64,000 nucleotides of DNA from an uncultured Candidatus Saccharibacteria bacterium (GTDB taxonomy: Bacteria; Patescibacteriota; Saccharimonadia; Saccharimonadales; Saccharimonadaceae), in the NCBI GenBank assembly GCA_947166125.1, contig CAMVCW010000001.1, positions 1 through 64,000 of the forward strand, given 5' to 3'. Below the pieces are notes generated by a model. The model was given only the letters and a program-made list of their open reading frames with translations. It made no database searches and was not told where the DNA came from. Below are positions 7,473-62,203 of the stretch, piece by piece. Numbering within the stretch: position 1 is the stretch's first letter; each line of letters begins with the position of its first letter. Both the position numbers and the translations under genes were made by a program.

Positions 7473-7656
7473 TTGGCGGATTATGCCTGCACCTATTTTC
7501 TCGTTATCGGGACTTGAAATTTTTAGCACGTCATACGCTGGGCGTCCGGGAAAGTCTGCCCTTTGGGCAGCTTCCTCGGCGCCTTCAGGAATATACGTGT
7601 AAAAATTCCAAATCATTTTATGATAACGAGGAAAATAGGGTGCAGGCATTCGCCAA
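7473..7656. repeat. Palindromic element, tsaD type (intergenic copy)
   Basis: A 184-bp imperfect palindrome. Outer arms TTGGCG...CGCCAA continue into ATGCCTGCACC/TATTTTC/TCGTTATC on both sides with single-base gaps. The inside contains GGGACTTGAA and CATACGCTGGG on the left and ATATTCCTG on the right arm complement, all shared with the insertion inside tsaD (58183-58352). The outer arms are unrelated to those of the tsaD copy. It fills most of the 385-nt gap between mutM and the next gene; read as protein it gives the peptide GLEIFSTSYAG, matching GLEFSSTSYAG in tsaD. Confidence 0.85.
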
Positions 7657-9334: not shown

Positions 9335-11758
9335 TTACAATTCGCCCCAGTTGTGGCCAATGGCGACGTCTACAGCGAGTTTAATTTTGAGTTCAGGAGC
9401 GACGGATTCCATCTGCTGTTGTAAGATTTTAGCAACGTCTTTAGCGATAGCCTCATCGCATTCTACAATAAGTGAGTCGTGCACTTGCATCACGAGTTCG
9501 GCGCCGGCTGGGAGAGCCTTATCCACGTTAATCATGGCGCGCTTCATGAGATCGGCCTCTGTGCCCTGGATAGGCATGTTCTGAGCAGCGCGCTCGGCGG
9601 CCTGGCGGATGAGGAAGTTGGAAGATTTAACATCCGGTGTGGGACGGCGGCGGCCATAGAAAGTTTCTACATAACCCTGCTCGCGGGCTTGTTTTAAAAT
9701 ACTTTCTAGCTTGCGCTTGATGGGGGCGCGAAGCTCAAAGTAATTATCAATGAATTGCTTGGCCTCAAGGATGGACATTTTAGCAGCCTCGGCCAGGCCC
9801 TTCACGCTCATACCATAAAGAATACCAAAATTAATCACCTTGGCGGCGCGGCGCTGATCTTTGGTGACCTTGTCAAATGGTACGCCGAAAGCCTCGGCGG
9901 CGGTCTTGGTGTGGATGTCTATATCGGCATTAAAATCATTGATGAGCGCGGCATCGTTTGACAAGATAGCAGCCAAGCGCAACTCAAATTGAGAATAGTC
10001 CGCCGAAACCAACACTTTGCCAGCTGGCGCAACAAAACCAGTGCGAATACGTTTGCCCTCATCGGTACGGACGGGAATGTTTTGAAGGTTAGGATCTTTG
10101 GAACTAAGACGGCCAGTAGCAGTGACGTTTTGAGTGAAGGTAGTGTGGATACGATTTTCTTGATCTGCTAGATCTGGCATAGGAATAATATAAGTAGAGA
10201 GTAACTTGGCGGCTTCGCGATATTCGATGATCTTGGCAATGATGGGGTGCAAATCTTTTAACTTGTCCAGCTCTTTGGCACCAGTGGAATAGCCACGAGA
10301 AGTTTTCTTGATACCCTTAGTAGGAAGGCCGAGCGTAGTAAAGAGAATATCACCAAGCTGATAAGGCGAATTAAGATTAAACTCTTTGCCGGCAAGTGTA
10401 TAAATTTCTTGTTCAATACGGGAGACTTCAGCGGTGTATTCTGATCTAAGATTGGCAAAATAGGAGCGATCTATTAGCATGCCCTTCTTTTCCATCTTGT
10501 AGAGGACTGGAATGAGCGGCAAATCTAGTTCGGTGAGTACCTGCAATAGTTTAGGATATTTCGCGAGCGCGGATTTTTGAGTCTGGTATTCTTCTTCCGG
10601 TACGGATAAGGTAGGTTGCTCACGAGAGAGAGGATTTAAGAGAAAGGCGGCTTGGGATAAGTCCCAAAAAGGTTTGCCGGATAGAATTTCATCGGCAATT
10701 TTTTGGTTGCCATGCATGATGGTTTTGATGTCCCAACCAATAATCAAATTTTTGTTCCCAGTAGACGCCGGAGATAATTCTTTCGTGACGCGCTCGTTTC
10801 GGCCCATCGTTATGGGCGAAACTTCGCTCCCCCGCTCCTCGTTAGTCGCGGAAGGTCGCGAAAGAATATCTTCCGACATTTTATTAGCATCAATCTTTCT
10901 GATTAGCGAATTGAATTCCAGTTTCTTCAAACCAACAATAACCTGAGCGCGGTCGAAATGAAAGTCCTGCAGGCTGGTAAGGTCCACAGGGGCGTCAAAC
11001 ATAATTTGAGCGAGCTGGCGTGACATATAGGCACTATCTTTCCCTGCTTCAAGCTTGGCGTGGGTAGAGCCGGTGATTTTATCTAGATTTTGGTAAATAC
11101 CTTCTAACGTGCCGTATTCGTTTAATAATTTTGCAGCAGTTTTTTCACCAATACCGGGTACACCAGGAATATTATCAGAAGAATCGCCTTTCAAAGATTT
11201 TAAATCTAGAAATTGGGACTTTTTGATGCCATATTTAGCTTCTACTTCGGCCACATTAATTTGTTCAATATTAGAAAAGCCTTTGAGAATACGCCACATG
11301 TGAGTATTTTCATCTACAATCTGCAACATATCCAAATCGGAGGAGATAATATAGGTCTCGTAATCACATTGGCCAGAGGAATCTAGCGTTTCGTCTGCCT
11401 GGCGGCTGAGCGTGCCAATAATATCATCTGCCTCATAGTTATCTATTTCTACAAAATTCCAGCCAAGATCATGAATAAGCGCCTCTAGAAGTGGGATTTG
11501 TGTGTAAAAATCGTCACCTGGTTTGACGCGGCCAGCTTTGTATTCTGGATAAATTGCTCGGCGACGCGAAGTGGAGGATTTAGAGTCCCAAGCTACTACT
11601 ACTTTAGTGGGATTTAGTTTTTGGACAATTTCCATAGCAATGGCAGCAAAACCATATACGCCGCCAGTAGGTGTGCCATCGGATAGGCTAAGCGGCCCCA
11701 TAGCATAGTAACCACGATAGAATACTGATTTTCCGTCTATTAAAACTAAGCGCTTCAT
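9335..11758 (-). CDS. polA: DNA polymerase I without an active proofreading domain
   Basis: 807 aa. Residues 1-290 are the 5' nuclease (DGKSVFYRGYYAM, EADDIIG, GDSSDNIPGVPGIGEKTA). A linker carrying a palindromic element follows (residues 295-330). The 3'-5' exonuclease region is short and lacks the acidic metal ligands. The polymerase domain is complete: motif A (SADYSQFELRLAAIL), motif B (RRAAKVINFGILYGMS) and motif C (MQVHDSLIVEC). It acts in Okazaki-fragment and repair synthesis. The start codon overlaps the stop of the upstream membrane-protein gene (TAATG), so the two are coupled. Confidence 0.95.
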   Translation of the reverse strand: MKRLVLIDGKSVFYRGYYAMGPLSLSDGTPTGGVYGFAAIAMEIVQKLNPTKVVVAWDSKSSTSRRRAIYPEYKAGRVKPGDDFYTQIPLLEALIHDLGWNFVEIDNYEADDIIGTLSRQADETLDSSGQCDYETYIISSDLDMLQIVDENTHMWRILKGFSNIEQINVAEVEAKYGIKKSQFLDLKSLKGDSSDNIPGVPGIGEKTAAKLLNEYGTLEGIYQNLDKITGSTHAKLEAGKDSAYMSRQLAQIMFDAPVDLTSLQDFHFDRAQVIVGLKKLEFNSLIRKIDANKMSEDILSRPSATNEERGSEVSPITMGRNERVTKELSPASTGNKNLIIGWDIKTIMHGNQKIADEILSGKPFWDLSQAAFLLNPLSREQPTLSVPEEEYQTQKSALAKYPKLLQVLTELDLPLIPVLYKMEKKGMLIDRSYFANLRSEYTAEVSRIEQEIYTLAGKEFNLNSPYQLGDILFTTLGLPTKGIKKTSRGYSTGAKELDKLKDLHPIIAKIIEYREAAKLLSTYIIPMPDLADQENRIHTTFTQNVTATGRLSSKDPNLQNIPVRTDEGKRIRTGFVAPAGKVLVSADYSQFELRLAAILSNDAALINDFNADIDIHTKTAAEAFGVPFDKVTKDQRRAAKVINFGILYGMSVKGLAEAAKMSILEAKQFIDNYFELRAPIKRKLESILKQAREQGYVETFYGRRRPTPDVKSSNFLIRQAAERAAQNMPIQGTEADLMKRAMINVDKALPAGAELVMQVHDSLIVECDEAIAKDVAKILQQQMESVAPELKIKLAVDVAIGHNWGEL
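10769..10875. repeat. In-frame palindromic element inside polA
   Basis: Arms CGGAGATAATTCTTTCG and the complement of CGAAAGAATATCTTCCG enclose 107 bp. The core shares GGCCCATCGTTATGGGC with the copy in argS. It encodes about residues 295-330 of PolA, in the linker between 5' nuclease and the remaining domains, and keeps the frame open. The part is visibly richer in G+C than the surrounding gene. Confidence 0.75.
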
Positions 11759-21697: not shown

Positions 21698-23332
21698 TTA
21701 GCGGGCGAGACAGCGGACCGAAAAACCGTAGTCTTTTCGACTAGGGTCTGATGGCCAAACACCACCGCTATTAAATACTAATCGGGATGCGCTAAGCTCT
21801 TGATTGATTGTGCTAGACCAATAATAGCCTATACTCATTGAATATGATAAGGTTATGATATTAATGTATCCCGATCGCACAAAAGACACTGGCATGCTTC
21901 TTATGGCCGTAATGTTTTCTGGTTTTATATCATAAGTTGTAATAAGATCTTTAAAATCGTTTGTAGATGTTTTTGGCAATCTCCACCCCTTAGGACACAC
22001 AGAATCCGGCGCATCCCCACTCATTATTTCACTCGTATCATTACTCCCCACTGCAACACTCCAGTTATAATAATTCCCGGCATGATAATGCGCACAATCA
22101 TTATGTCCTGCTACTGTGCATTCTTGTAATGAATTATACTTAATATCATTTTCTTCTGTTCCTGACGTATAGTAATATATATCTCCAGGATTAGCGGAAT
22201 ATGGTTCTGTATTACTATTAACCCATCCTGGTACTTGGTTGGTATTAGCTCCATCAAAGTCAATAGTAGAGTGGCTAGGTTTCCAAGTGGCATTTTCATC
22301 TACAGTGCTACCATCTTCTGTACTCCACCCTAAATCCGTATCCCAGTGAGTATAGGTTCTATTACTATCTAGATCTAAATCTAAGTTCTGTGTCATCCAA
22401 CAATGATTATCTGCTAGTTTAGATATCCAGTATAGTTTGTTATCTCTTATATCTAATACTTGTAATTGTGCTCCTATAGCTTCTGTCTTTTCACATATAG
22501 TAGATGTCATATCCTGCATAGTATAGTAACCGTTAATCATAGTCTTACCCTCACTCGCATAGGCTTCACTTAGAGTAATGGATGTAGGTTTAGTGGTAGC
22601 ATAAAAGTTAATGGTTCCAGTATAGACTCCGGAGGGTTGGGCATTGCTGGCTTTAGCTGCTATCTTGAAACCTATATTATTAGAAACGTTACTGCTAGTA
22701 TCCAACAATATAGCATTATTACTATTAGCCAGACCATTATAATTAGACCAAGTGGTACTATTATCCAGTGAAGTAGAGTAGCCCCAAATATTAGTGTCTT
22801 CACCGTCATCTAAACTAGATAAGTCTGCATTAGTAGCTATACTACTAAATACACTAGTATTATTAGTATGAGTTAGATTACTATTGTTGTGAATATCATC
22901 GCCTATATTAGCAGATAGTGTATACCCATACGCTGCATTAGTAGCAACACTTACATTAATACTATTACTATCTTCTATACTACCAGGAACTAGATTAGGA
23001 ATAACTAAGTCATTAGAACTAAGGCTAATAGACAATGTAGGATTAAAGGTAAACCCTATACCTACATTACTAGAATAGTCTAAGGCAGAGACATTGGAAT
23101 TATTAAATATATTAGAAGAACATAATGTCATGTTTGTAAAACTTAACATTATGATTAATGAAGCTAAGGTTATGTTTTTAAATCTTAAGGTTAAGATTTT
23201 TTCCTTATCTGTTAAATGGCTTGTTATGTTTCTATAAAACGATATTAAGTTCTTAAGATTAAATGTTAAGAATTTATACTTCAATGTTATGTTTCTAATA
23301 TTGAATTTTATGTTATTTTTATTATTCCGCAT
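21698..23332 (-). CDS. FISUMP-domain surface protein 2
   Basis: 544 aa from the ATG at 23332 (MRNNKNN); the open frame continues 150 nt upstream but there it runs through the structured leader. GGAAGG lies 11 nt before this ATG. A long basic N-terminus has four RNIT/KNIT-like repeats and contains a hydrophobic helix (LASLIIMLSF). A beta-rich region (VATNAAYGYTLSANI, QPSGVYTGTINFYA) precedes the C-terminal Fib_succ_major domain (MQDMTSTIC, DNHCWMTQNLDLD, CPKGWRLP, FSVRCLAR). The N-terminal half differs from the other two copies. Confidence 0.87.
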   Translation of the reverse strand: MRNNKNNIKFNIRNITLKYKFLTFNLKNLISFYRNITSHLTDKEKILTLRFKNITLASLIIMLSFTNMTLCSSNIFNNSNVSALDYSSNVGIGFTFNPTLSISLSSNDLVIPNLVPGSIEDSNSINVSVATNAAYGYTLSANIGDDIHNNSNLTHTNNTSVFSSIATNADLSSLDDGEDTNIWGYSTSLDNSTTWSNYNGLANSNNAILLDTSSNVSNNIGFKIAAKASNAQPSGVYTGTINFYATTKPTSITLSEAYASEGKTMINGYYTMQDMTSTICEKTEAIGAQLQVLDIRDNKLYWISKLADNHCWMTQNLDLDLDSNRTYTHWDTDLGWSTEDGSTVDENATWKPSHSTIDFDGANTNQVPGWVNSNTEPYSANPGDIYYYTSGTEENDIKYNSLQECTVAGHNDCAHYHAGNYYNWSVAVGSNDTSEIMSGDAPDSVCPKGWRLPKTSTNDFKDLITTYDIKPENITAIRSMPVSFVRSGYINIITLSYSMSIGYYWSSTINQELSASRLVFNSGGVWPSDPSRKDYGFSVRCLAR

Positions 23333-23372
23333 CCTATATATACCTTCCGCCTTAATTAAGGTTTTAATTCGG

Positions 23373-23544
23373 TTGCGGTGCCATCTTTGTAATATATGAA
23401 AAGGCGTATACAAAAATGGCACCGCAAGGTTGCTATAGTCCAACGATAGTTTCACCAATCGAAAGACACCTCGCGATGCCATTAAATTTGGCGAAACAAT
23501 CGTTCTATTAAAAATAATCGTTGAACTATAGCAACTTAATTATA
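23373..23544 (-). promoter_or_regulatory. Structured leader of FISUMP gene 2, copy 3
   Basis: TATAAT (23539-23544), A (23517-23534), B (23469-23480), A' (23430-23447), B' (23418-23429) with T-run, B'' (23373-23391). Helix A differs at most positions from copies 1 and 2 but still pairs 18 of 18 with one wobble. B has two substitutions, both giving G.U pairs with the unchanged B'. B'' matches B' and its T-run over 19 nt with one mismatch, forming a stem that competes with B-B'. Confidence 0.87.
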
Positions 23545-23570
23545 GCATTTTTGTGGCAAAAGCAAAATAC

Positions 23571-23858: not shown

Positions 23859-24358
23859 TTTAGCTCCTCTATACTGCCATTAATATCGTCTAAAGCACGA
23901 TGATTTTCCGGCTTAGTGAATTTTTTGTTCAAAGCGTTTTCGAAATAAATTTTCCAAGCAGAAACGTCCAACATGCGATAGTGTAACTTCTTATCCAGCT
24001 CTGGCATTTCGTGTTCGATAAACTTGCGGTCTTGGTGAATAGAATTGCCAGCGAGGTAAATCGTTTTGCCGAAATATTTATCTATAAAATCTATCAGTTC
24101 TTTTTCTACTTCTGCTGCGGGTTTGCCGTCTTTGTTTTGCGCCATTAAACTATCGCGCGATTTACTGTTTTTCTCCCAGAAATCACCCACCATGCGGGAT
24201 TTCATTAGATTTTCATCCACCTTAACTACAGCTTCGTATTTGGCAATTTCGTTTAATTCCATATCTGTAGCGATGGCGGCGACTTCTAAGATTTTGTCTT
24301 TGTCCGGCTCTAGACCGGTCATTTCTAAATCTACCCATAAAAGTTTAGCTTTTTTCAT
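23834..24358 (-). CDS. orn: Oligoribonuclease
   Basis: 174 aa, DEDDh exonuclease that degrades 2-5 nt RNAs to mononucleotides. Motifs: ExoI WVDLEMTGL, ExoII AGNSIHQDRKF, ExoIII HRALDDI. The start codon shares one base with the argS stop (TAATG), so translation is coupled. An intact Orn together with a degenerate NrnA-like protein at 3509 suggests Orn does the nano-RNA work here. Confidence 0.95.
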   Translation of the reverse strand: MKKAKLLWVDLEMTGLEPDKDKILEVAAIATDMELNEIAKYEAVVKVDENLMKSRMVGDFWEKNSKSRDSLMAQNKDGKPAAEVEKELIDFIDKYFGKTIYLAGNSIHQDRKFIEHEMPELDKKLHYRMLDVSAWKIYFENALNKKFTKPENHRALDDINGSIEELKWYLTFLK

Positions 24359-26058
24359 TACATTTCCTCCGGGATGTTAATGCCTAGAATATTTAAGCCG
24401 TGAGACATAGTGTCTAGATAAACTTTGACGAGTTTGGTGCGCTCAGCTTCCCTGTCGCTGCCGGCTACAGGGCAGTGTTCATAGAAGCGTGAGAACTCCT
24501 GGGCGAGTTCGTATAAGTAGCTCGCAACTTTGTGCGGCGCCATTTCGGCAACGGCTTCTTTAAGCGTGCCCTTATATTCTAAAATCTTCTTGACGAGATT
24601 ACGCTCTGCATCTGTAAATATGCTTTTTCGGAACGTTCCCTCAGGCCCATCGTTATGGGCTTCGGTCGCTCCGTATTTCCCCCGTTGGGAAATATGTTCC
24701 TCAAAAGCATCGTTTACAGATGCCAAAATCTTTTTAGCTCTGACGCAGGCATAGAGCAGGTACGGGCCGGAATTGCCGGTCATTTTGACGGATTCTTTCG
24801 GATCGAAAATGATGTGGCCGCCCATTTTGTATTTGAGGAAAGCGTATTTGGTGGCGGCGAGGGCTACGGTATTATCTGTGGAATTATATTCACTCTGCAG
24901 CTCATCACGAACCATATTTAATACATCTACGGCTTTAAGGAAATTACCCTTGCGGGAAGACATTTTGACGTTGCCGGGGAGTTTCACTAAACCATGAGTA
25001 AGATGGGTGGTTTTTTCTACCAAATCTGGAGCGTATTGTTCGACAGATTTTAGTACCACTTTCATATATTCCAATTGTTCGCTGCCGGTAATGACGACAG
25101 ATTTATCAAAATGGTAATCTTGCCATTTGGTGAAGATAAGGCCGACGTCTTTAGTTTCGTAAGTGGGGACGCCTTCTTTGTTAATGAATACGCGAGTGTG
25201 TAAGCCAAACTTATCGCCATTGAAAATTACGGCTCCATCTGACATTTCATAGACGCCCTTTTCTAGCTCTTCTTTAACTTTTGCTAAGCCTAAGTCTGCA
25301 ACAGTGGATTCGGGGTAGAATTTGTCAAAATGCACGCCAATCTGAGCGTAGAAATCTTTGAAATAATCGTAGGACAATTCCCTGCCCTTCCAGTAAAGTT
25401 CAGCTAGCTTACTATCATGAAGATTTTCGGAATTAATCTGATAAATTTTTTTGTTCAGTTCAGTGATTCTGGCATGAGCATCCTCACTATCTTCATAGGC
25501 AGCAGTGCCTTCTACATAACATTTGGCAATATCTTCGATAGTAAAATCTGCAGGAGATTTTTGCTCTAGGATATAGAGAGTTTTGGCAACGTGCAAGCCT
25601 ACATCGCCGCCAAAGTTTGCACGAATAACCTTGGCGCCGGAGTATTCAAAAAGTCGCGAGATGGAATCACCAATTATACTAGTGTAAAGATGCCCTACAT
25701 GTAGTACTTTGAAAGGGTTTGGATCGCTAAATTCACAAATAACAGTTTTGCCAGAATATTCGTCTGATGATATATTTTCTCTGAAATTGGTGCTGAGATT
25801 TTTGATTTGGGCGGCTAGATATTCGTCTGGCAAAGTGAAGTTGACAAAACCTGGTGCAGAAACTTTTGCGGAGATTTTAGGGGCGATTTCGTTTGCTATT
25901 TCCATTGGTGCTTTGTGTAAATCTTTGGCAAGTTTCAGAGCGATATTAGAAGAATAATCCGCATCGATATTCTCAGGCGATGGAGTAATATCTGGTGCAA
26001 CATCTAGACCATAGAGGTCTTTGATGGTAGTTTTAATCTGTTCGTGGATTTGTTCCAT
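24358..26058 (-). CDS. argS: Arginyl-tRNA synthetase with palindromic insertion
   Basis: 566 aa class I synthetase. N-terminal additional domain, HVGH signature (KVLHVGHLYTSIIGDS), KMSSR motif (VKMSSRKGNF) and C-terminal anticodon-binding helices (PHKVASYLYELAQEFSRFYEHCPV) are all present. Residues 446-484 come from a palindromic element (24608-24723) placed in the linker before the anticodon-binding domain, where most ArgS proteins have only a short loop. A TATAAT at 26065-26070 ends 6 nt before the ATG: leaderless. First gene of a three-gene unit. Confidence 0.95.
   Translation of the reverse strand: MEQIHEQIKTTIKDLYGLDVAPDITPSPENIDADYSSNIALKLAKDLHKAPMEIANEIAPKISAKVSAPGFVNFTLPDEYLAAQIKNLSTNFRENISSDEYSGKTVICEFSDPNPFKVLHVGHLYTSIIGDSISRLFEYSGAKVIRANFGGDVGLHVAKTLYILEQKSPADFTIEDIAKCYVEGTAAYEDSEDAHARITELNKKIYQINSENLHDSKLAELYWKGRELSYDYFKDFYAQIGVHFDKFYPESTVADLGLAKVKEELEKGVYEMSDGAVIFNGDKFGLHTRVFINKEGVPTYETKDVGLIFTKWQDYHFDKSVVITGSEQLEYMKVVLKSVEQYAPDLVEKTTHLTHGLVKLPGNVKMSSRKGNFLKAVDVLNMVRDELQSEYNSTDNTVALAATKYAFLKYKMGGHIIFDPKESVKMTGNSGPYLLYACVRAKKILASVNDAFEEHISQRGKYGATEAHNDGPEGTFRKSIFTDAERNLVKKILEYKGTLKEAVAEMAPHKVASYLYELAQEFSRFYEHCPVAGSDREAERTKLVKVYLDTMSHGLNILGINIPEEM
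24608..24723. repeat. In-frame palindromic element inside argS
   Basis: 116 bp. Outer arms GCATCTGTAAA..ATGCTTTT and their complement (ending CAGATGC) pair with a 2-base gap. The core CATCGTTATGGGC..TCGGTCGCTCCGTATTT..CCCCGTTGG..AAATATG matches 60890-60967 in the P-type ATPase and, in part, polA. In argS the core is read as FEEHISQRGKYGATEA, in the ATPase in another frame. Confidence 0.88.
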
Positions 26059-57807: not shown

Positions 57808-59007
57808 ATGAAAATACTGGGAATTGAAACAAGTTGTGACGAGACAGCCGCGGCCGTAGTAGAAGATGGCGTGCGGATTTTATCCAATGTAGTGGTTTCT
57901 CAGATAGATATTTTTGCAGAGTATGGCGGCGTAATACCAGAGGTGGCAGCCAGAAATCATTTAGAAGTAATGATGCCGGTAGTAAAAAAGGCACTCTCTG
58001 ATGCGGAATGTACTTGGGACGATATTGACGCGATAGCAGTGACACATGCGCCGGGGCTACTTGGTTCCCTGCTGATTGGCACGCTGACGGCTAGGACATT
58101 GGCTATTTTACATGATAAACCTCTATATGCGGTGCATCACCTAAAATCACATGTGTATGCGAATTGGCTAAGCAATGCCGAAGAAACCAAACCTGTCTTT
58201 TCTTCAGCGGGACTTGAATTTTCAAGCACCTCATACGCTGGGTCACGGGCAGGACCGCCCCTACGGGGCGAACCTGTCCGGCCCGGCAGGAATATAGGTG
58301 TTGAAAATTCAAATCAAAACTTTATGCTTCAGAAAAGACAGGTTCTGGTTTCCCAAACACCCCAGTTTCCTCTTATTGCCTTAGTGATTTCAGGGGGACA
58401 TACGCAAATTCTGTATATGCCGGCACATAATCAGTTTGAAATAATTGGTACGACTAGGGACGATGCGGTGGGAGAGTGTTTTGATAAAGTGGCGAAGATA
58501 CTGGGGTTACCATATCCTGGTGGACCGGCTATCGCGAAAGCCGCTTTAGACGGCGATGAAGGTAAGTATAAGTTACCACATCCGAAAGTGGAAGGGCTAG
58601 ATTTTTCGTTCTCGGGGTTAAAAACCGCGGTTCTCAGGGCGGTGCAAAAGGAATTGGGGTTACCGATTTCACACCCAAGTTATGACTTAAAAAATCACCT
58701 GTCTAAAAAACAGGTGGCGGATTTTGCGGCATCGTTTCAGAAAACTGCAGTGGAGATATTATGTGAAAAATTAGCCTTAGCAATGGAGCAGTATCCAGAT
58801 GTGCAATCTGTAGTGATTGCGGGTGGAGTAAGCGCGAATAAGGCTCTCCGCGAGGCCCTGCCAGAGGCGTATTTCCCAGAATCTTCCCTTTCCGGCGACA
58901 ATGGAGCAATGGTTGCGGCAGCAGCATATTATGAGATTATTTCAGGGGTAAAGCCGGTAGATCCGTATAGTCTAAACATTTATCCGAGAATATCTATAGA
59001 AAAGTAA
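57808..59007 (+). CDS. tsaD: tRNA threonylcarbamoyladenosine transferase TsaD with palindromic insertion
   Basis: 399 aa; the family is usually near 340. It moves the threonylcarbamoyl group to A37 of ANN-decoding tRNAs. Visible: LGIETSCDETAAAVV, the metal histidines in HHLKSHVYANWL, LVISGGHTQILYM, GECFDKVAKILGLPYPGGP and VVIAGGVSANKALR. Residues about 126-182 come from a palindromic element placed between ANWLSNAE and PQFPLIAL, a surface loop of only a few residues in E. coli. TATAAT at 57796-57801 ends 6 nt before the ATG, leaderless. Confidence 0.95.
   Translation: MKILGIETSCDETAAAVVEDGVRILSNVVVSQIDIFAEYGGVIPEVAARNHLEVMMPVVKKALSDAECTWDDIDAIAVTHAPGLLGSLLIGTLTARTLAILHDKPLYAVHHLKSHVYANWLSNAEETKPVFSSAGLEFSSTSYAGSRAGPPLRGEPVRPGRNIGVENSNQNFMLQKRQVLVSQTPQFPLIALVISGGHTQILYMPAHNQFEIIGTTRDDAVGECFDKVAKILGLPYPGGPAIAKAALDGDEGKYKLPHPKVEGLDFSFSGLKTAVLRAVQKELGLPISHPSYDLKNHLSKKQVADFAASFQKTAVEILCEKLALAMEQYPDVQSVVIAGGVSANKALREALPEAYFPESSLSGDNGAMVAAAAYYEIISGVKPVDPYSLNIYPRISIEK
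58183..58352. repeat. In-frame palindromic element inside tsaD
   Basis: 170 bp. Outer arms GAAACCA..ACCTGTCTTTTCT and the complement pair over about 21 nt with one extra base; inner TTGAATTTTCAA appears in both arms. The core GGGACTTGAA..GCACCTCATACGCTGGG matches the intergenic copy at 7473-7656, and the right arm CATAAAGTTTTGATTTGAA..CCTATATTCCTG (complement) also matches it. Confidence 0.88.
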
Positions 59008-59788: not shown

Positions 59789-62203
59789 CTAGAGGTTGCG
59801 ATGGGGTGCAGCGGCGAAAATGCGAGCGGTGATTTTTTGCATGAGACGGCGCATAGCTTCAAAAATTACTAGGCCCGAACCAATAATTACCAACATGACA
59901 ATAAAATTATCTGGGGTGAGTAGGACGAATTCAAAGAAGTCGCGAATAATGGGTACGGCAAAGGCGGCTACCATAATGCCAATAATCGTAAAGAATAAGC
60001 CAGCACGGAGTTTGTTGAGTGGACGAGAAATCCAATAGATGAGAACAAGGTCGATAGTAAAGGTAACAAAGACGGAGATAGTAGTAAGCTCTGGGTGAGA
60101 AAAGCCTTGAAGGTGAGAAACAATGGAAAGCGCAGCCATGCAGAAAGAAACCGTGAGACCAATTGGGAAGGAATAGGTGAGAATATTTCTGGTGAAATTG
60201 TTTTTGATGCGGTTGGTGTTTTTTTCTAGGGCCAGTACCAAACCCGGGAAGCCGATACAGGCAAAGTTTAGCAGCGACATTTCAATGGGGGTGAAGGGGT
60301 ATTGCATAGGGAGAAAGACAAAAATGACGGCGAGAATAGAGGCATAGATGGTCTTAGCGAGAAAGAGAGCAGTGGAACGCTCGAGGTTATTGATGGATTG
60401 GCGGCCTTCATCTATAATGCTGGGGACAGAAGAAAAATCGGAGCCTAAGAGAACCATTTTAGCGCTACGACGGGCAGCATCGGAACCTTCGCCGATGGCG
60501 AGGCTGACGTCGGCTTCTTTCATGGCCAGGATATCGTTGACGCCATCGCCGGTCATAGCGACAGTATTTCCCTGTTTTTTAAAGGCTTGGATAAGGGATT
60601 TCTTTTGAGCAGGTTTGACGCGAGTAAAAATATTATAGGTTTTGACTAATTTATTATAATCTGGTGAACCCTTGATGGTGGACAAATCTATACCATGGAT
60701 ATCTTTAACGCCAACTTTAGCGGCAATGGTCTCTACGGTGGAGAGGTTGTCGCCGGAGATGATCTTGACGGTAATGTCGTTACGATAGAAATAGTTGATG
60801 ATTTCAGGAGCGTCACGGCGAAGTTCGTCTTCTAATAAAACATAACCTAGTAGTTTGCTATGCTGCGGAATGCGAGAATACCCGTCATTTTCGGAACGCT
60901 CCCTCGCTCCCGTCGTTACGGGGCTCGGTCGCTCCGTATTTGCCCCGTTGGCAAATATGCTCCTCAAATGAGGGTATTCTTCGCATTCTACTACGGCGAG
61001 GATGCGGTATGTACTATCAAAGTCGGATTTTTCATTGGTAAGGAACTCGGGGGCGCCCATTAGGTAAGCGGTTTTTTTAGTGACGACGCCGGAATATTTG
61101 CGGTCGGAGGAGAAAGGGATGGTTTCGAGGATTTGCTCTGTGGGCTTAAATTTGGCCGTTTTTAGCAGTTTTGACTTTAAGGCGAGTGAAGTAGCGGTAT
61201 CGGCGCTAGAATTGCTTAAAATAGCCTTTAGCGCATTCTCAAGGGCATTTTGAGACTGACCTTTGGCTGGAATTAGCTCTTTAACGCGCATTTTGCCGGT
61301 AGTGAGGGTGCCAGTCTTATCTAAACAGATGCAATCTACACGAGCGAGGGTTTCGATAGAGTAAAGATCTTGCACTAAGACCTTTTTGCGACTGAGACGG
61401 ATGGTAGCAAGGGCAAGGACAGAAGAAGTAAGGAGAATAAGGCCTTCAGGGATCATATTGATAAGTGCAGCAACCGTACTAGTGACGGCTACTTCTGTGG
61501 TGGTGCCGGGAACGCGGAAACGTGCCCAAAGTAAAAGCGCGCCGATGGGGATAAGGGCATAAGAGATGTATTTGACGATGTTGTTCATGAGCGTGAAAAG
61601 CTTGGAATCGGCAGTCTTGATGGTGTGGGCGGTGGACTCTAGTTTACTGATGAAATTATCAGCGCCAACAGCGGTAGCAGTAGCTTTACAAGCGCCAGAG
61701 ACAATAAAACTACCAGAAATAAGCTTATCGCCTGGATGTTTTAGGATATTATCGGATTCACCAGTGATGAAAGATTCATTAACCTCTACTTCCCCCTCAA
61801 TGATTTGACTGTCTACAATGATTTGGTCGCCTATGGAGAGGACGAGAAGATCGCCGTCGACGATTTGCTCTTGGCTGATTTGGCGAATTTGACCATTTCT
61901 GATAACCGTAGGCCTTTGTTCAGAGATAAGACGCATTTTGTCGATGGTTTTCTTGGCGCGGATTTCGTTGACAATGCTGATAAGGGTATTAGCAATGGCG
62001 ATGAGCACAAAAAGAAGATTTTTGTAGCTACCAACAAGAAAGATCATGGCGGCAAGGACGAGGTTGACGAGATTGAAGATAGTGAGCGTGTTTTTAAGAA
62101 TGATTTTGCCGATGGAGTTAGACTGTTTCCTAGGGGCGCGATTGATGCGGCCTTGGCGAGTTTTCTCGGCAACTTCTTTGTCTGTGAGCCCAGTAAGTTT
62201 CAT
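59789..62203 (-). CDS. P-type cation-transporting ATPase with palindromic insertion
   Basis: 804 aa. About ten membrane helices; actuator TGES (FITGESDNI), phosphorylation site CLDKTGTLTTGKM, hinge TGDGVNDILAMKEADVSLAIGEGSDAAR. The overall layout is of the calcium/magnesium-type or CtpE-like group; no heavy-metal binding domain is present. The ion is unknown. Residues about 406-446 in the nucleotide-binding domain come from a palindromic element (60868-60988), between VVECEEYPH and LLGYVLLEDELR. No Shine-Dalgarno site is clear. Confidence 0.9.
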   Translation of the reverse strand: MKLTGLTDKEVAEKTRQGRINRAPRKQSNSIGKIILKNTLTIFNLVNLVLAAMIFLVGSYKNLLFVLIAIANTLISIVNEIRAKKTIDKMRLISEQRPTVIRNGQIRQISQEQIVDGDLLVLSIGDQIIVDSQIIEGEVEVNESFITGESDNILKHPGDKLISGSFIVSGACKATATAVGADNFISKLESTAHTIKTADSKLFTLMNNIVKYISYALIPIGALLLWARFRVPGTTTEVAVTSTVAALINMIPEGLILLTSSVLALATIRLSRKKVLVQDLYSIETLARVDCICLDKTGTLTTGKMRVKELIPAKGQSQNALENALKAILSNSSADTATSLALKSKLLKTAKFKPTEQILETIPFSSDRKYSGVVTKKTAYLMGAPEFLTNEKSDFDSTYRILAVVECEEYPHLRSIFANGANTERPSPVTTGARERSENDGYSRIPQHSKLLGYVLLEDELRRDAPEIINYFYRNDITVKIISGDNLSTVETIAAKVGVKDIHGIDLSTIKGSPDYNKLVKTYNIFTRVKPAQKKSLIQAFKKQGNTVAMTGDGVNDILAMKEADVSLAIGEGSDAARRSAKMVLLGSDFSSVPSIIDEGRQSINNLERSTALFLAKTIYASILAVIFVFLPMQYPFTPIEMSLLNFACIGFPGLVLALEKNTNRIKNNFTRNILTYSFPIGLTVSFCMAALSIVSHLQGFSHPELTTISVFVTFTIDLVLIYWISRPLNKLRAGLFFTIIGIMVAAFAVPIIRDFFEFVLLTPDNFIVMLVIIGSGLVIFEAMRRLMQKITARIFAAAPHRNL
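60868..60988. repeat. In-frame palindromic element inside the P-type ATPase gene
   Basis: 121 bp. Arms GAATGCGAGAATACCC..TCATTT and the complement of AAATGA..GGGTATTCTTCGCATTC pair with single-base gaps. The core GGAACG..TCCCTC..CGTCGTTACGGGG..TCGGTCGCTCCGTATTTGCCCCG matches that in argS. It is read here as HLRSIFANGANTERPS, one base out of phase relative to argS. Confidence 0.88.

Follow-up and report, generated by a model that had tools for sequence, protein, structure and literature searches.

A palindromic element of 116 bp, lying in frame inside argS of a Saccharibacteria genome 816,580 bp long, belongs to a repeat family (family 1) that is genus-wide and occupies dozens of host sites, which was missed by the initial annotation of this DNA. 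The family is probably a mobile DNA repeat, non-autonomous and confined to one genus, whose copies of about 115 bp would fold into a branched hairpin, spread selfishly and keep their pairing at the DNA level, these properties being taken jointly. The palindromes and the parts of the argS element are listed below by position in the window, i.e., the whole stretch of 64 kb that was analysed.

24358 to 26058, minus strand: host gene argS, 566 aa, with the insert at residues 446-484 within DALR_1 (434-566)
24608 to 24723, core reading on the plus strand and argS on the minus strand: palindromic element of family 1 (fold z-scores, family search)
24608 to 24623, plus strand: left outer arm GCATCTGTAAATATGC, locus-specific (arm alignment)
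24624 to 24706, plus strand: conserved 83-bp core, with outer stem ends TTTY/RAAA and two hairpins (50-copy alignment, pair counts)
24629 to 24673, plus strand: hairpin 1, with the tip CCCATCGTTATGGG (consensus fold, pair counts)
24675 to 24693, plus strand: hairpin 2, whose stem letters swap among copies while pairing is kept (consensus fold, pair counts)
24707 to 24723, plus strand: right outer arm GCATCGTTTACAGATGC, with one extra unpaired nucleotide (arm alignment)
60868 to 60988: second family-1 copy (core 60887 to 60969), lying in frame within the gene of a P-type ATPase (59789 to 62203, minus strand)
about 10769 to 10875: in-frame palindrome within polA (9335 to 11758, minus strand), from a family related to family 1 but distinct from it
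58210 to 58315: in-frame palindrome within tsaD (57808 to 59007, plus strand), from a second, unrelated family (GGACTTGAATTTTCAAGCAC...)

The 116-bp palindrome with its own core is present at 24608-24723 as had been claimed, with the outer arms of 16-17 bp flanking the 83-bp core and its two hairpins, the loops of which both include CGTC. The RNA fold of 24590-24740 reaches -55.9 kcal/mol (z -6.4), equalled by none of 200 shuffles, and the DNA fold of the palindrome has a z-score of -8.0; the interruptions in its arms hide the element from an inverted-repeat tool used alone. The in-frame location was likewise borne out, since residues 446-484 of ArgS are encoded by the element on the minus strand (sample predicted peptide YGATEAHNDGPEGTFR). 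However, the insert does not lie in a linker before the anticodon-binding domain, where it had been placed, but forms a loop inside this domain, as Pfam DALR_1 covers residues 434-566. The sole stretch of the ArgS structure model with pLDDT below 50 is residues 454-478, within the insert, most of which is missing from the solved E. coli-type bacterial ArgS 4oby, and on translation the insert should give the protein an additional, flexible loop, with translation deduced from the open frames and mobility from sequence. The insert is not common to all ArgS homologues: some are without it, and others carry different palindromes at that codon. The core had also been said to recur in the ATPase and polA genes; this holds for the ATPase copy, which is 86% identical to the argS copy across 81 bp and has the outer arms GAATGCGAGAATACCCGTC and GAGGGTATTCTTCGCATTC, but not for the polA palindrome, which has only the tip hairpin CCCATCGTTATGGG in common with family 1.

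Far from being unique, the core was matched six times in the genome of the window, in argS, P-type ATPase, TatD, RlmD, Obg and one place on contig 4, and the consensus query also found a ValS copy there. Among draft assemblies taken one per species, consensus-core matches were found in 127 of the 174 congeneric genomes, with none in the other 131 genera of a 246-genome sample of the order. The exact core pattern was met in 65 stretches among 84,980 species genomes, all of Saccharibacteria, the carriers being metagenome-assembled genomes with titles mostly of ruminant gut. Carriage of the element by viruses was rejected, with the core pattern in 0 viral contigs.

Taken together, the retrieved loci yielded 101 full-length copies, each of about 115 bp, in some 20 gene families; many of them occupy orthologous sites and so are not independent of one another. 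All but one of these (100/101) lie inside ORFs of at least 120 aa, the remaining copy being outside any long frame. The host frame is open in 100 of 100 copies, as compared with 277 of 500 (55%) for the other frames, and the copies occupy four of the six reading frames in both orientations. The host genes, named by NCBIfam or Pfam, comprise aminoacyl-tRNA synthetases and enzymes of tRNA/rRNA modification (ArgS, ValS, IleS, LeuS, QueA, MnmA, a Dus, TrmD, MiaA, TsaD, TruB and RlmD), together with a NifS-type desulfurase, Obg, PolA, a RarA-like ATPase, TatD, oligoribonuclease, a FemX-like protein and P-type ATPase. The former class makes up 12 of the 20 named hosts, and this share is apparently far above that of tRNA/rRNA-related genes in the genome.

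The stems remain about 95-97% paired overall while their sequence is replaced, almost every change being two-sided. In 50 aligned copies, 98.5% of the core cells are paired; 164 core cells are changed on both sides, versus a shuffle mean of 46, with the covariation score reached by none of 500 shuffles, and the outermost core pair takes the forms UA, GC, CG and AU, intermediates changed on one side only being absent. The outer arms are locus-specific and complementary within a copy, with a median pairing score of 12 versus 1 for swapped flanks; arm complementarity amounts to 0.93 within a copy, 0.78 between orthologous copies and 0.64 with any other copy, and the arms stay about 95% paired despite replaced sequence. 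The very strong RNA fold and the covariation in all three helices would suit an element acting in mRNA, as a self-removing or spliced insert, a ribosome-bypass signal or a regulatory stem, with pairing selected in RNA. However, covariation alone is no proof of RNA function, and selection on an mRNA stem was rejected because G.U mismatches, read in mRNA sense in 88 distinct copies, show no excess over A.C, either in the arms (24 G.U, 22 A.C) or in the core (19 G.U, 21 A.C). In a tRNA control, 92 G.U stood against 0 A.C, a weak comparison in that ARAGORN may report allowed pairs only. Excision or bypass would also not require the host frame to be always open, and no Rfam family matched, the sole hit being at chance level and outside the element. 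An RNA-level role is therefore very improbable, and since G.U is not dominant as mRNA selection would predict, it is apparently in DNA, and not in mRNA, that the stem pairing is preserved. The initial annotation had missed this too, as well as the complementarity of the locus-specific arms.

The occupancy of the sites varies among the closest species. Two of them (G173 and G177, about 95% identical in DNA) were compared with the species of the window (G000): the rlmD and tatD copies are the same in all three, whereas the Obg site is empty in G000 and filled in the other two; the argS element is common to G000 and G177, its codon being occupied by another palindrome in G173; and at the IleS locus the palindrome of G177 is unlike that of the other two species. 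At the RlmD codon, an in-frame palindrome of varying family occurs in all 30 closest congeners (loci L174-L203), and this codon is a genus-wide palindrome hot spot; one copy there (L179, G001) is an internally deleted derivative of which only both arms and the core ends are left, in frame. A second palindrome is nested in hairpin 1 of the family-1 copy in Obg of G173 (L230) and in IleS of G177 (L243), and nested copies of a similar kind are seen in other genomes too. The shared rlmD and tatD copies and the constant presence of some palindrome at the RlmD site (30/30) are what one would expect of old neutral insertions, inherited vertically and kept by mutation bias only, with no mobility at present. 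Against this stand the occurrence of unlike palindromes at one codon in species that share 95% identity, the nested insertions, and the near-identity of cores from several loci of a single genome (in G119 as in G070, 96-98% to the consensus), which render such an origin quite improbable. The empty Obg site has no obvious direct repeat that would mark a target-site duplication, and its flanks are diverged; as some differences between the species, such as that at Obg, fall in diverged tracts, the locus was transferred at least partly by homologous recombination.

The origin of the arms bears on what it is that moves. It may be supposed that insertion puts an inverted copy of about 16 bp of host flank across the core, only the core being mobile; in line with this, the arms differ locus by locus, the stem is longer by 5-14 locus-specific bp at some loci, the insert at argS site 259 has a net size of 105 bp with one arm aligning with native residues, and one QueA arm overlaps native EAK codons. 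However, the arm CGAGAATACCC recurs in ATPase, Obg and MnmA, and its presence at different genes means that these arms move together with the element; measured against empty homologues, the net insert size ranges between about 70 and 114 bp; and the arms of the second (tsaD) family, determined by direct reading of the flanks, are common to several loci, with compensating changes. Simple target inversion for all arms is contradicted by the gene-shared arms and the net insert sizes, and arms derived from the target are on the whole unlikely. The second family has relatives in 36 of the 174 congeners.

The mobile repeat preferred here would work as follows. A branched hairpin, i.e., an outer stem bearing two inner hairpins, would insert and spread as a selfish element, and a copy would survive only where a tolerant loop coincides with a stop-free frame. 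Such a copy, once translated, would add an unstructured loop of roughly 25-40 residues to the protein and would then be trapped and hard to lose, because loss needs an exact in-frame deletion, which is rare. Pairing may be kept either via polymerase template switching, in which one arm is copied onto the other, or since a hairpin-recognising enzyme needs the structure. In most right arms a single additional nucleotide stands unpaired at 4-10 positions from the core, and in 22 of 57 left arms one does so at 3 positions from the core. The right-arm nucleotide speaks against simple template-switch repair, which should remove it unless the frame forbids, and one possibility is that it persists since its correction would shift the reading frame; pure quasipalindrome correction, which leaves it unexplained, was rejected. 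A Y1/RAYT transposase was discarded as the mover because it is absent from carriers: the Y1 (IS200-like) transposase PF01797 was found in 0 of 28 carriers tested and in 3 of 99 congeners. No homologue of SbcD over the cut-off was detected in 60 genomes of the order, in which the controls were detected; this absence is compatible with tolerance of palindromes and may favour their survival, but it is order-wide and so not specific to the genus. More tentatively, and with less than even likelihood, the stems might be continually rewritten strand to strand, by template switching or hairpin-mediated movement, with the arms locus-private and partly host-derived, the recognised core fixed, and spread preferentially via tRNA-related genes, leaving neutral translated loops throughout the translation machinery of the genus.

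Translated palindromic repeats are mainly a feature of Rickettsia. The Rickettsia palindromic elements (RPE; Ogata et al. 2000, 2002) are palindromes of about 100-150 bp that form several families in frame in housekeeping genes, are predicted to be translated and have no known transposase (PMC10969869, PMC6649704). The present element resembles them in size, as an in-frame dispersed palindrome of several families in housekeeping genes with predicted translation, and in having no known transposase; it differs in belonging to another phylum, in using four reading frames and both orientations, and in that its stems stay paired (arms about 95%), whereas the identity of RPE repeats is reported to be lost over time (PMC6649704). 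Inverted repeats within coding genes, with arms actively kept complementary, for which template switching was proposed, are also found in Nematomorpha mitochondria (PMC6649704); the maintained pairing is common to both systems, but those palindromes are not described as a dispersed family, whereas the core in Saccharibacteria recurs at many loci. The REP elements are 20-40 bp long and mostly extragenic, the CGTC-tagged ones being without a dedicated transposase (PMC3733652). Like REP/REPIN, the element is a short dispersed palindrome, of a kind that is intragenic in some cases, with CGTC present and no dedicated transposase as in the CGTC REPs; unlike REP/RAYT, it is about 115 bp long and almost always intragenic, has CGTC in the loops and not as an end tag, which in REP is GTAG or CGTC, and occurs in carriers that have no Y1 transposase. 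Quasipalindrome or template-switch mutation produces multi-base compensatory changes and perfected stems in DNA (PMC7202029, PMC8794818), much as the stem of the Saccharibacteria element changes in pairs at the DNA level; it is, however, a process and not an element, and it leaves the dispersed core unexplained.

The likeness to RPE that the initial annotation had proposed thus stands for behaviour (dispersed, in frame, in essential genes) but not for family membership, as four inserted peptides, searched up to E 10, matched no model of NCBIfam or Pfam, NCBIfam being presumed to contain RPE models. Its remark that it knew of no such family in Saccharibacteria agrees with a literature search that gave none, most subscription journals lying outside it. 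If borne out, the family would be an unrelated, larger system in the minimal-genome Saccharibacteria, and this way of gaining residues in essential proteins would have arisen independently. With about 100 copies in orthologous genes of close species, the concerted evolution of stems at the DNA level, with simultaneous double substitutions and no G.U bias, becomes testable, as does the way in which transposase-less palindromes spread.

Two other repeats were noted in the window. A further copy of the second family, at 7510-7614, lies upstream of a mutM-like gene and outside ORFs of at least 100 aa, and at 23410-23554 an inverted repeat of 43 nt, 74% complementary and with a spacer of 59 nt, lies across the start of ORF 21698-23482.
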